Source: Candidatus Lokiarchaeota archaeon | GTDB lineage: Archaea; Asgardarchaeota; Thorarchaeia; Thorarchaeales; Thorarchaeaceae | NCBI GenBank assembly: GCA_014730275.1 | Contig: WJIL01000089.1 | Location: 1-47,352, forward strand | Length of the DNA stretch: 47,352 nucleotides | Direction of reading: 5' to 3' | Shown here: positions 1,494-39,053 of the stretch, in pieces | Position numbering within the stretch: the stretch's first letter is position 1 | Layout: every line of letters starts with the position of its first letter | The notes under the pieces: generated by a model | Seen by the model: the letters and a program-made list of their open reading frames with translations, nothing else | The model's database searches: none | What the model was told of the DNA's origin: nothing | Position numbers and translations under genes: made by a program

Positions 1494-3575
<2,082 letters not shown>

Positions 3576-33917: not shown

Positions 33918-34478
33918 ATGAAAGTGGAAAATCTGAATCTCAAAGAACAACTCGACTTCAATCCGGAAGACGGTATTCTCAAACTAGGTGGTCAAAGAAT
34001 GGTGATCATGCCGGCTGATTCAATCGGGCAGTTGATTGGATTCATCATGCGAATAGGCGACGAAAACATGGTTCATATGTTTCTGTTTGAAATGGGAGAA
34101 GAAGCTGGACGCAGAGACGCAGAGAACCTGAAGAAAGAATTTCCGCCCGATACGGACATGGATTGGGCAGGTCTAGGACCCACTATCCACTCCTGGGAAG
34201 GCATAGTCAAGGCAGTTCCCGAGGAAATCGAAATAGATCGTGACAAGCCATACACACACTGGAAAGGCACCTGGGACAATTCGTTCATCGCGGATCAGTG
34301 GCTGGATCGATTCGGTGAATCTGATGAGGCAGTATGCTCGTTGCTTACAGGCTATGCTCAAGGATATTCATCAATCGTTGTTGGCGAAGAGACCGAAGCA
34401 CGGGAACCAATGTGTAGAGCAAAGGGCGATGATAAGTGCATGTTTGAAATCAAACTCAAAGGCGATTGGGAAGAATAG
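33918..34478 (+). CDS. V4R-domain protein, copy 1
   Basis: 186 residues. The N-terminal part (DFNPEDGILKLGGQRMVIMPADSIGQLIGFIMRIGDENMVHMFLFEMGEEAGRRDAENL) resembles the XylR_N/methanogen-output type of sensory domain. The C-terminal part, GYAQGYSSIVVGEETEAREPMCRAKGDDKCMFEIK, is a V4R (4-vinyl reductase) domain with its typical paired cysteines. These small domains bind hydrophobic ligands or metals and often act as sensors. No DNA-binding or catalytic domain is attached. Copy 2, with about 24 differences out of 186 residues, follows 225 nt downstream. Confidence 0.85.
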   Translation: MKVENLNLKEQLDFNPEDGILKLGGQRMVIMPADSIGQLIGFIMRIGDENMVHMFLFEMGEEAGRRDAENLKKEFPPDTDMDWAGLGPTIHSWEGIVKAVPEEIEIDRDKPYTHWKGTWDNSFIADQWLDRFGESDEAVCSLLTGYAQGYSSIVVGEETEAREPMCRAKGDDKCMFEIKLKGDWEE

Positions 34479-34703: not shown

Positions 34704-35264
34704 ATGAAAGCAAAAGACTTGAACCTAAAGACTGAACTCAACTTCAACCCTGATGAAGGGATCCTCAAACTTGGGGGCCAGAGAATGGTTATCATGCCCG
34801 CTGATTCGATTGGGCAGTTGATTGGATTCATCATGAGAATCGGTGATGAGAACCTCGTTCACATGTTCCTACACGATATGGGTGTTGAAGCCGGACGCAG
34901 AGACGCAGAAAACTTGAAGGAAGAATTTCCACCGGATACGGATATGGATTGGGCAGCCCTAGGCCCCACTATTCACTCTTGGGAAGGTATCGTCAGGGCA
35001 ATTCCTGAGGAAATCGAAATAGACCGTGAGACGCCATATACATACTGGAAAGGAACATGGGATAACTCGTTCATCGCGGATCAGTGGCTGGATCGATTCG
35101 GTGAATCTGATGAGGCTGTGTGCTCACTGCTTACAGGATATGCTACAGGTTACTCATCGGTCGTCGTTGGTGAAGAAACAGAAGCACGGGAACCGATGTG
35201 TAGAGCAAAGGGCGACGATAGGTGCGTGTTTGAGATCAAACTCAAGGGCGATTGGGAAGATTAG
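34704..35264 (+). CDS. V4R-domain protein, copy 2
   Basis: 186 residues, about 87% identical to copy 1 by eye count, with the same XylR_N-like N-terminus and C-terminal V4R domain (CRAKGDDRCVFEIK). Differences cluster in the first 15 residues and around residues 50-75. A 50-nt tract (34281-34330 and 35067-35116) is identical at the nucleotide level, including synonymous sites, although neighbouring codons differ. This suggests recent gene conversion. It has its own promoter and terminator and is therefore an independent transcription unit. Confidence 0.85.
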   Translation: MKAKDLNLKTELNFNPDEGILKLGGQRMVIMPADSIGQLIGFIMRIGDENLVHMFLHDMGVEAGRRDAENLKEEFPPDTDMDWAALGPTIHSWEGIVRAIPEEIEIDRETPYTYWKGTWDNSFIADQWLDRFGESDEAVCSLLTGYATGYSSVVVGEETEAREPMCRAKGDDRCVFEIKLKGDWED

Positions 35265-36077: not shown

Positions 36078-36659
36078 TTAAGCTTCCATGTCTTCCTCAT
36101 AGCCCCAGTCGACTATGGCCTCTTCTCCCGTTTTCATCAGACTTCCGCCAACACAATAACCAATCATGCACATGACAAGACCAATGATATTCAAAGAGCC
36201 ACCGGTTACGATGAACAATCGTGAGTCGCTGACTTGCTTGTAACCAATATCTATGATTGTGGGGCCTTCAACATTGTCAAGGATTATGGTGTAGTTTCCA
36301 GGCTCCAAAGAAACGACAGACCGATCAACATACTTGGGCGGATCACTGTCTTCTATCCGGTCTTCATCATCCAGAGTCATGTTGATTACTTTCGTCTCCG
36401 AAGTTACATTGTTGATAATCACGAAATCCACTTGCATAACATTGGATGTCACATTCTCGGCATTGATGCTTACTGAAGCCTCAAACTCTGGATAGTAGCC
36501 AGAACGATCCCATATTTCAAATGTACCAACATGTCCTTCTCTTGCCATCAACCCAACATAATGGTAAGGAGCTGATAATACGATTGCTCCACCAAGCAGA
36601 ATCACAAAGGCACCACCAAAATACAAGAATGCCTTCACTTTGTTAATCCGGCTACTCAT
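36078..36659 (-). CDS. Two-TM membrane protein with an extracellular beta domain
   Basis: 193 residues. N-terminal TM ~8-30 (AFLYFGGAFVILLGGAIVLSA), then ~110 residues of beta-rich sequence with several N-x-S/T sequons (NVTSNVMQVDFVIINNVTSET, VVSLEPGNYTIILDNVEG), then a second TM (FIVTGGSLNIIGLVMCMIGYCVGG) and a short acidic tail. The middle resembles the emp24/GOLD-like or jelly-roll 'EPGNYTI.LDN' pattern seen in many archaeal two-TM proteins, but no family is assigned. Confidence 0.75.
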   Translation of the reverse strand: MSSRINKVKAFLYFGGAFVILLGGAIVLSAPYHYVGLMAREGHVGTFEIWDRSGYYPEFEASVSINAENVTSNVMQVDFVIINNVTSETKVINMTLDDEDRIEDSDPPKYVDRSVVSLEPGNYTIILDNVEGPTIIDIGYKQVSDSRLFIVTGGSLNIIGLVMCMIGYCVGGSLMKTGEEAIVDWGYEEDMEA

Positions 36660-36774: not shown

Positions 36775-37021
36775 ATGGCTCAATTTGATGCATTTGCTAG
36801 TGTGCAAGAAAAGATAGCATCCACGTCGAGTACGAATTCGAAAGCAGATTTCCTTTCTGAGTGGTTCAAATCTCTCAGTCCTGATGGAATCGGGACTCGC
36901 CCTTCGATTTGCCAGAATTATTTCCATTAGAGAAGATAAGGGCCCCGAAGATGTCACAAATATTGGTCAGCTTCGATGAATATTCGATAAGCAATTCAAG
37001 TATGAAGCCAGAAGCCAATGA
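36775..37021 (+). pseudogene. Remnant of ATP-dependent DNA ligase with a large internal deletion
   Basis: From the ATG at 36775 the frame reads FDAFASVQEKIASTSSTNSKADFLSEWFKSLSPDG, the N-terminal DNA-binding-domain opening of archaeal/eukaryal ligase (F..A....KI..T.SR..K...L...F..L.P.). At about 36888 similarity shifts by one frame into ESGLALRFARIISIREDKGPEDVTNIGQLR, the ligase C-terminal motif VI block (LALRFPRF..IREDK.PEDATT). It continues, after an in-frame TGA at 36976-36978, with IFDKQFKYEARSQ and a stop at 37019-37021. About 500 central codons, including the catalytic Lys motif, are missing. The gene is dead. The 36660-36774 stretch upstream holds no other gene. Confidence 0.8.
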
Positions 37022-37099: not shown

Positions 37100-37738
37100 A
37101 TGATGGAGGAACCAGATTCGGGCAAATCCAATTTGAATCCGTACCTCAGATACTATGTACATGGCTTGCTATGGTCGATTATTCAGCAAGTTCTTGGAAT
37201 AGGATGGTTAATCATAGTTATTCCTTTGATTCAAATCGGCCTTCTCTTTGGTTTGATACTCGGTTTCGCATTGCTATTCTATGGTATGGGGTATCTAAAT
37301 CAAGGATTGATTGGAATCATATGGAATGGGAATCAAAGTGAGGATTGGAAGGTTGTTGTTTTTCACGGCTTCACGCTTTTTCTTATCCTAGCTACCTTGC
37401 ATATACCCCTGAGCCTCTTCTTTGGTCCGTTAGTCCTCGCACGGACTTCGGGTCTTCCAGGTGCCATAGTTTTCATGATATTCGCCTTCCTAATGTACCC
37501 GATTGCAGATGGTCTTATTGCCAAAGGCGTAGGAAGTGCGTTTGTAGATGATGAATCTTCAAAGGGCTATTTCCCTACTGTTAATCGCCCTGAAGACATT
37601 GAAAGAGAGGCTGGGCCCCTTACCAAATGCCCATACTGTGAAGAGTTGTTTCCCTATAGAGATGATCACCTTTCTGAAGATGGTATAGCAACATGCCAAC
37701 ACTGTGGAGCTTCAATAAAGGATCCTCGTTATGAGTAA
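37100..37738 (+). CDS. Membrane protein with C-terminal zinc ribbon
   Basis: 212 residues. Four or five TM segments fill ~20-150 (LLWSIIQQVLGIGWLIIVIPLIQIGLLFGLILGFALLFYGMGY, VVFHGFTLFLILATLHIPLSLFFGPLVLA, IVFMIFAFLMYPIADGLIA). The tail carries a four-cysteine ribbon, CPYC-x(~20)-CQHCG. The membrane part recalls DUF4013-like proteins. The ribbon is presumably cytoplasmic. Function unknown. Confidence 0.8.
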   Translation: MMEEPDSGKSNLNPYLRYYVHGLLWSIIQQVLGIGWLIIVIPLIQIGLLFGLILGFALLFYGMGYLNQGLIGIIWNGNQSEDWKVVVFHGFTLFLILATLHIPLSLFFGPLVLARTSGLPGAIVFMIFAFLMYPIADGLIAKGVGSAFVDDESSKGYFPTVNRPEDIEREAGPLTKCPYCEELFPYRDDHLSEDGIATCQHCGASIKDPRYE

Positions 37739-37916: not shown

Positions 37917-39053
37917 ATGGGCAAAAAGGGAAATCCCCCTCTCTCTTCGCTCGTTCCCAAGCACCATTTTGCCGGTTTAAGCTTCTTCCGACAACCTCCC
38001 CTGGTAAACTGGAAATTCACCGATTCTGTTCTTTTCACGGCTTATGATTTCTATCGAACAAGCAGTTTTTGGGTAGAAAGAGTGATTCGCCAAGGAATGA
38101 CGCTCAAGCAAGCTCTAATCGATATGGGCTTTCCAAAAGAGAACAGATCACTGGCCGATACCGGAGTGTTCTCGATAGAAGCCAGAAAAGCTGGAATTGC
38201 TAGGGAGTTAGGTATTGAACCCGATATTGAGCTAACAAATGAACAAATTTTCCATGCCTATTCGGTGTCCGGTGCGGACCTTTTTGTATCGCCGGACGAA
38301 ATCGTTGTTCCCGATGATGGGAAAGAAGAAGTCAATGAGAAAATATCGACAATCAAAGACAATTTCCTTGACCTACTGGAAATCGTACCCCCATCTAAAG
38401 TTCTGGCTGTGATTCAGGCCCCAGATGAACCGACCGCCCAAGAACTGTTTGATTTCTACAAATCACACGGAATCACAACATTTGCTGCTGGTGGACTGAT
38501 CCCTTTGTGGAAATCAAGCGCTAAGAAGCTTCGAGACATGTTGCAGTACATCAGGGAACTCACCGATGGCTACTGGCTCCATGCCTTCGGACTCCCACGA
38601 ATCAGGTTACTGCCCTACTACATTCATATGATTGGCATTGATTCTGTTGATAGCAGCATGTTGCTGTATCTATCAGCCAAAAAGCGTTACCTAGAAGGGT
38701 TGAAAGCTATACCCGTTCGCAAAGCCGATTTCAGCAAATGCCAGTGTTCCGGATGTTCCAGTATGAAAAAGAAACCAGTTGCTCACAGCTATCAGTTCTT
38801 CATAAATCTCTATATCCACAACGTTCACGCTGCGACAAACTTAGCTTTGGAATCACAAGAAAAGTCCAAACTGGATAATTATATTGACAAGGTTGCTGAA
38901 TATAGACAAAAACGACGAAAGAAGAAAGAGACTCGGCAGAAGCGAAAAATACCACAAAACGCATGGATGAACGCCAAGACCCTCCATCGAGAAAAATACA
39001 TGACTAAAAAGAAGAAAGTGGATTCCAAAGAGAAAGCAAAACGCAGACCGTAG
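37917..39053 (+). CDS. Divergent tRNA-guanine-transglycosylase-like protein
   Basis: 378 residues with a degenerate TGT plan: LADTGVF (D81) in place of the substrate-binding DSGGFQ; AAGGLIPL (~191-197) in place of GGLAVGE; LHAFGLPRIRLLPYYIHMIGIDSVDSSM (D242, D245) in place of H..G.G.P......GIDxFDC; then a zinc site CQCSGC (C275, C277, C280) with H301 in YIHNVHAATNL, matching C.C..C...HN of TGT. A very basic tail (~325-378, KKK/RRKKK) follows. There is no PUA domain, so it is not a standard archaeosine TGT. Options are a paralog acting on another RNA or on DNA (DpdA-like proteins are TGT relatives that modify DNA). No 7-deazaguanine biosynthesis gene is nearby. Confidence 0.75.
   Translation: MGKKGNPPLSSLVPKHHFAGLSFFRQPPLVNWKFTDSVLFTAYDFYRTSSFWVERVIRQGMTLKQALIDMGFPKENRSLADTGVFSIEARKAGIARELGIEPDIELTNEQIFHAYSVSGADLFVSPDEIVVPDDGKEEVNEKISTIKDNFLDLLEIVPPSKVLAVIQAPDEPTAQELFDFYKSHGITTFAAGGLIPLWKSSAKKLRDMLQYIRELTDGYWLHAFGLPRIRLLPYYIHMIGIDSVDSSMLLYLSAKKRYLEGLKAIPVRKADFSKCQCSGCSSMKKKPVAHSYQFFINLYIHNVHAATNLALESQEKSKLDNYIDKVAEYRQKRRKKKETRQKRKIPQNAWMNAKTLHREKYMTKKKKVDSKEKAKRRP

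Follow-up and report, generated by a model that had tools for sequence, protein, structure and literature searches.

A unitary pseudogene of a second ATP-dependent DNA ligase at a conserved Thorarchaeota locus

A Thorarchaeota genome carries the two ends of an archaeal ATP-dependent DNA ligase gene, joined out of frame at a locus where its relatives keep the gene intact. We analyzed a 47,352-nucleotide stretch of contig WJIL01000089.1 (hereafter the window) from assembly GCA_014730275.1 (genome G000), a 99.5% complete draft of 151 contigs. Profile searches, synteny and comparison with intact copies confirmed that positions 36775–37021 are a pseudogene of a euryarchaeal-like ATP-dependent ligase that we call type B. 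The remnant is very probably a unitary pseudogene, left by a second ATP-dependent DNA ligase that was redundant, and the locus is best read as ordinary decay of such a gene rather than as a case of an essential gene being replaced. Three features make up the remnant:

36775–36894, plus strand: N-terminal stump of the type-B ATP-dependent DNA ligase, frame 1, codons 1–40 of about 557, with the original ATG present
36887–37021, plus strand: C-terminal stump, the last 44 or so codons, frame 2, with an in-frame TGA at 36977–36979 and the natural stop at 37019–37021
36883–36894, plus strand: deletion junction GATGGAATCGGG, placed from the sequence and the nucleotide context of intact copies

Six-frame profile searches recovered both halves of the ligase. 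Using a profile made from 11 type-B ligases of relatives, all intact or nearly so, we searched the whole window and found nothing credible besides these two. The C-half, translated from 36887–37021 in frame 2 as ESGLALRFARIISIREDKGPEDVTNIGQLR and IFDKQFKYEARSQ, each followed by a stop, matched profile positions 512–545 with 33 bits (E = 1.5e-9, versus 0.0022 for a profile of the other ligase type, type A). Read through the TGA by tblastn, it showed 53% identity to contig L058 (E = 1.4e-10) and 56% to contig L059 (E = 9e-10). The N-half, MAQFDAFASVQEKIASTSSTNSKADFLSEWFKSLSPDGIG, a translation of the intergenic stretch 36775–36894 in frame 1, aligned without gaps to profile positions 1–40 at 8.2–10.3 bits. 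This half is short, its E of 0.016 in the window search is weak by itself, and its match to Pfam DNA_ligase_A_N (E = 0.011) is likewise weak, below the cut-off. Scored against a profile of 16 intact type-B copies, the halves reached 33.1 and 8.2 bits, versus 4.5 for the best of 3,000 dinucleotide shuffles of the intergenic region.

The remnant retains the outer limits of the gene and little else. Original start and stop are both kept, about 472 codons between them are missing, and about 84 of about 557 are left. Codons about 41–512 are deleted, taking with them the adenylation domain and the KxDG lysine motif (KxDGxR, residues 251–256 in intact type-B copies). Deletion, frame change and stop codon together disable the reading frame. 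Both stumps have diverged from intact copies beyond the level seen among those copies themselves (23% versus 42% similarity for the N stump, 56% versus 64% for the C stump), as expected under lost constraint. An earlier, sequence-only reading had recognized a decayed archaeal ATP-dependent ligase with its termini in different frames and an in-frame TGA. Our analysis bears this out, with both termini matched in order, on one strand and above every shuffle. That reading placed the halves ~40 nt apart, which is incorrect: they are contiguous or share about 8 nt (36887–36894). Its figure of ~500 missing codons is corrected by the count given above.

Relatives encode two kinds of full-length ATP-dependent ligase, A and B, about 30–36% identical to each other. 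Type A most resembles 2HIV, a ligase from Saccharolobus (Sulfolobus), at 520 bits, with LIG1 at 305 bits. For type B the best matches are 2CFM and 3RR5, solved structures from Pyrococcus/Thermococcus (about 425 bits, E about 1e-126, full length), ahead of 2HIV (236) and LIG1 (132). Intact type-B orthologues thus match these euryarchaeal ligases over their full length, and the remnant stumps match the type-B ends; unlike the euryarchaeal ligases, the remnant has no adenylation domain to carry the catalytic lysine motif. The likeness to 2HIV and eukaryotic LIG1 belongs to the retained type A, not to the remnant. Type-B-like ligases (38–44% identity to the query) are present in other families of the phylum and patchy in Asgard archaea, and none was found in the many genomes of family f2. 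Genome G002 encodes, besides its type A, a 590-aa ATP-dependent ligase (contig C29; L066 7704–9473) with 39% identity to type A and 36% to type B of the family; it may represent a third lineage or have arrived by transfer. Type B is the sole ATP-dependent ligase found in G021 (contig C1; L064 7877–9562), a single-contig genome estimated at 86% complete in which no LigA was found; there type B may serve replication.

The genome that carries the remnant retains other, intact ligases. Contig C49 of G000 encodes a type-A ligase of 584 aa in which Pfam recognizes the N-terminal, adenylation and C-terminal domains (208.6 bits to PF01068). We ruled out contamination as its source, since the sister species G001 has a copy 89% identical to it. 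No intact type B was found elsewhere in this 99.5% complete genome. A divergent 509-aa ATP-ligase-like protein on contig C40 (L002 664–2190, minus strand) was rejected as the missing ligase: it lacks an N-terminal DNA-binding domain, its adenylation and C-terminal ligase domains are weak, and it is neither A nor B. The window itself encodes an NAD-dependent ligase, as the sequence-only reading had correctly noted:

1494–3572, minus strand: intact NAD-dependent DNA ligase LigA, 692 aa, identified by NCBIfam NF005932 (844 bits) and by Pfam domains

Its adenylation, OB, Zn-finger, HHH and BRCT domains all score over curated cut-offs, and G001 holds a 92% identical copy.

The coexistence of these ligases argues against LigA having displaced the ancestral archaeal replicative ligase, with the remnant as its fossil. 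The sequence-only reading favored this explanation, and two observations speak for it: the window also holds an intact LigA, 33 kb from the remnant, and the ATP-dependent ligase gene at 36775 is defunct. However, G000 and its sister species both carry an intact, three-domain ATP-dependent ligase, which refutes the strong form of the idea, in which the sole replicative ligase was displaced, as distinct from a weak form in which LigA would have assumed the specific role of type B. The earlier reading had named beforehand another ATP-dependent ligase in the genome, as a sign of mere duplication, as the finding that would count against it. The 584-aa ligase on C49 is such a gene, but it comes from another ligase lineage and is no second copy of the decayed gene. 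Replacement of the replicative ligase is therefore unsupported, and we consider it improbable.

The distribution of LigA across the family points the same way. Fewer than half of the 47 family genomes have a LigA homologue, a count that leaves out a weaker match in G065 (34%), and most LigA-bearing genomes also have one or both ATP-dependent ligases. LigA presence is unrelated to type-B presence: with genomes treated as independent, 7 of the 47 have both, 10 have B only, 13 have LigA only and 17 have neither (Fisher p = 1.0), with some of the absences expected to be assembly gaps. The corresponding value for type A and LigA, again with genomes treated as independent, is p = 0.44. Among the 40 genomes with at least 80% completeness, 11 have A and LigA, 10 A only, 9 A and B, 5 all three ligases, and 1 each B with LigA, B only and LigA only; 2 have none. 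The five genomes in which A, B and LigA stand together also speak against displacement. In G010, the genome scored as LigA only, the type-B gene is cut by a contig end; we considered this fragment (contig C54, 106 aa, 64%) as a second type-B remnant and rejected it, as it runs off the end of a 9,055-bp contig and so reflects truncated assembly.

Synteny ties the remnant to intact type-B genes. Three neighbors define the locus:

36078–36659, minus strand: divergent upstream neighbor and 5' marker of the ligase locus, encoding 193 aa without a Pfam hit
37100–37738, plus strand: gene for a 212-aa protein, between the remnant and the TGT-like gene
37917–39053, plus strand: TGT-like protein with a PF01702 match, in most relatives the 3' marker of the ligase locus

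An intact type B sits exactly between homologues of the divergent 36078–36659 gene and the TGT-like gene in both G007 and G017. G020, G025, G028, G059, G060, G061, G063, G064, G065, G066 (on two contigs) and G067 show a matching arrangement, a few of them without the TGT-like gene. By contig, the upstream homologue is divergent from and adjoins intact type B on L058, L059, L061, L062, L065 and L147–L155, and the TGT-like gene lies directly 3' of it on L058, L059, L089, L093, L101, L104, L147, L148, L150–L152 and L154; L093 (CSMAG_1925, apparently genome G026) begins within the ligase, and its downstream side alone is visible. Several of the named Thorarchaeota contigs with this arrangement are genomes already counted. 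Intact type-B orthologues thus occupy the syntenic position, with the same neighbors, in at least 12 Thorarchaeota assemblies, where the sequence-only reading had proposed to look for them. This shared gene order identifies the organism as one of the Thorarchaeota.

Other relatives have an empty locus. No ligase was found there in G001, G002, G006, G009, G018, G019, G021 and a number of other named assemblies; two of these genomes, G019 and G021, carry type B at another place. Homology between the window and the sister species G001 is confined to the first 88 bp of the compared stretch and to its final 111 bp, which reach up to the TGT-like gene, and the G001 locus has no recognizable ligase trace. 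The 212-aa gene was not found at the locus in the relatives examined, and is therefore probably a later insertion. In a tree of seven neighboring genes, midpoint-rooted and with weak deep supports, the group of G000 and G001 falls outside the lineages with intact type B. If the remnant is orthologous to those copies, this proxy tree implies that type B stood at the locus in an early ancestor and was lost there repeatedly.

The same comparisons weigh on three further explanations. A collapsed or misjoined intact type-B gene is conceivable in a draft of 151 contigs, but a misjoin explains neither the in-frame TGA, nor the extra divergence of both stumps, nor the neighboring inserted 212-aa gene; intact type-B sequence is absent elsewhere in G000, and the sister species also has no type-B gene at the locus. 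Such an artefact is slightly less probable still than displacement by LigA. Recruitment of the stump as a short functional protein could draw on the surviving original ATG and the 51-codon open reading frame that starts at 36775 (51 aa), but the sister species has no copy, no conserved copy was found, and the N-half is the more diverged stump, so that we regard this as very improbable. A chance match in intergenic DNA, suggested by the weakness of the N-half alone (E about 0.02 in the window), is refuted and has a negligible probability, as no shuffle reached the score of either half and the halves lie in the expected order, on the expected strand and in the syntenic place.

Decay of a redundant type B accounts for the remnant through a short series of steps, whose order and mechanism we infer from sequence comparison. 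The family ancestor would have had type B between the 36078–36659 gene and the TGT-like gene, with a type-A ligase alongside. A large internal deletion would then have taken out the adenylation domain together with most of the other coding sequence, joining the ends out of frame. At the junction GATGGAATCGGG, the N frame reads ...(P)DGIG and the C frame reads ESG. Short sequences resembling one another stand at the two corresponding places in intact copies, which makes a microhomology-mediated deletion plausible. The TGA would have arisen afterward within the remaining C-terminal codons, and the 212-aa gene would have come to adjoin the remnant. Any product of the remnant would be unable to ligate. 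The loss would have been tolerated because, judging from gene content, ligation was supplied by type A and probably by the NAD-dependent LigA too.

Experimental work in another archaeon offers a parallel. In Haloferax volcanii, the ATP-dependent LigA and the NAD-dependent LigN are singly dispensable and jointly essential (PMC7776575). G000 resembles it in combining an ATP-dependent with a bacterial-type NAD-dependent ligase. It differs in that a further ATP-dependent ligase existed and decayed in the Thorarchaeota genome. By this analogy, the best reading is that type B would have been redundant because type A and LigA backed it.

These findings recast what the locus can say about Asgard archaea. 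As a pseudogene the remnant is ordinary; its modest interest lies in the evidence that it gives of a two-ligase state among Asgard archaea, and the claimed replacement of an essential replication gene in one of them is removed. The general pattern suggested is one of two distinct full-length ATP-dependent ligases, with an NAD-dependent one patchily present beside them, and it opens both ligase redundancy and the origin of the LIG1-like lineage to testing. We found no description of this pattern in the literature searched, in which coverage of subscription journals was thin. We lean slightly toward an Asgard ancestor with two full-length ATP-dependent ligases, a euryarchaeal-like B and a Saccharolobus/LIG1-like A, that were differentially lost; the B locus of Thorarchaeota would have been fixed and then emptied several times, with the remnant both a half-way loss and evidence of an early B.

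Two neighboring gene sets show differences of their own. The TGT-like protein is weakly similar to the archaeosine synthase ArcS and is a conserved ligase-locus neighbor in Thorarchaeota; in G001 its gene (L072 5711–6843) is interrupted near the end by a TGA and a frame change around query residue 344, and the window copy is intact. Upstream, the window carries tandem duplicate genes for XylR_N plus V4R proteins at 33918–34478 and 34704–35264. The sister species has one copy, with its match split over two frames.
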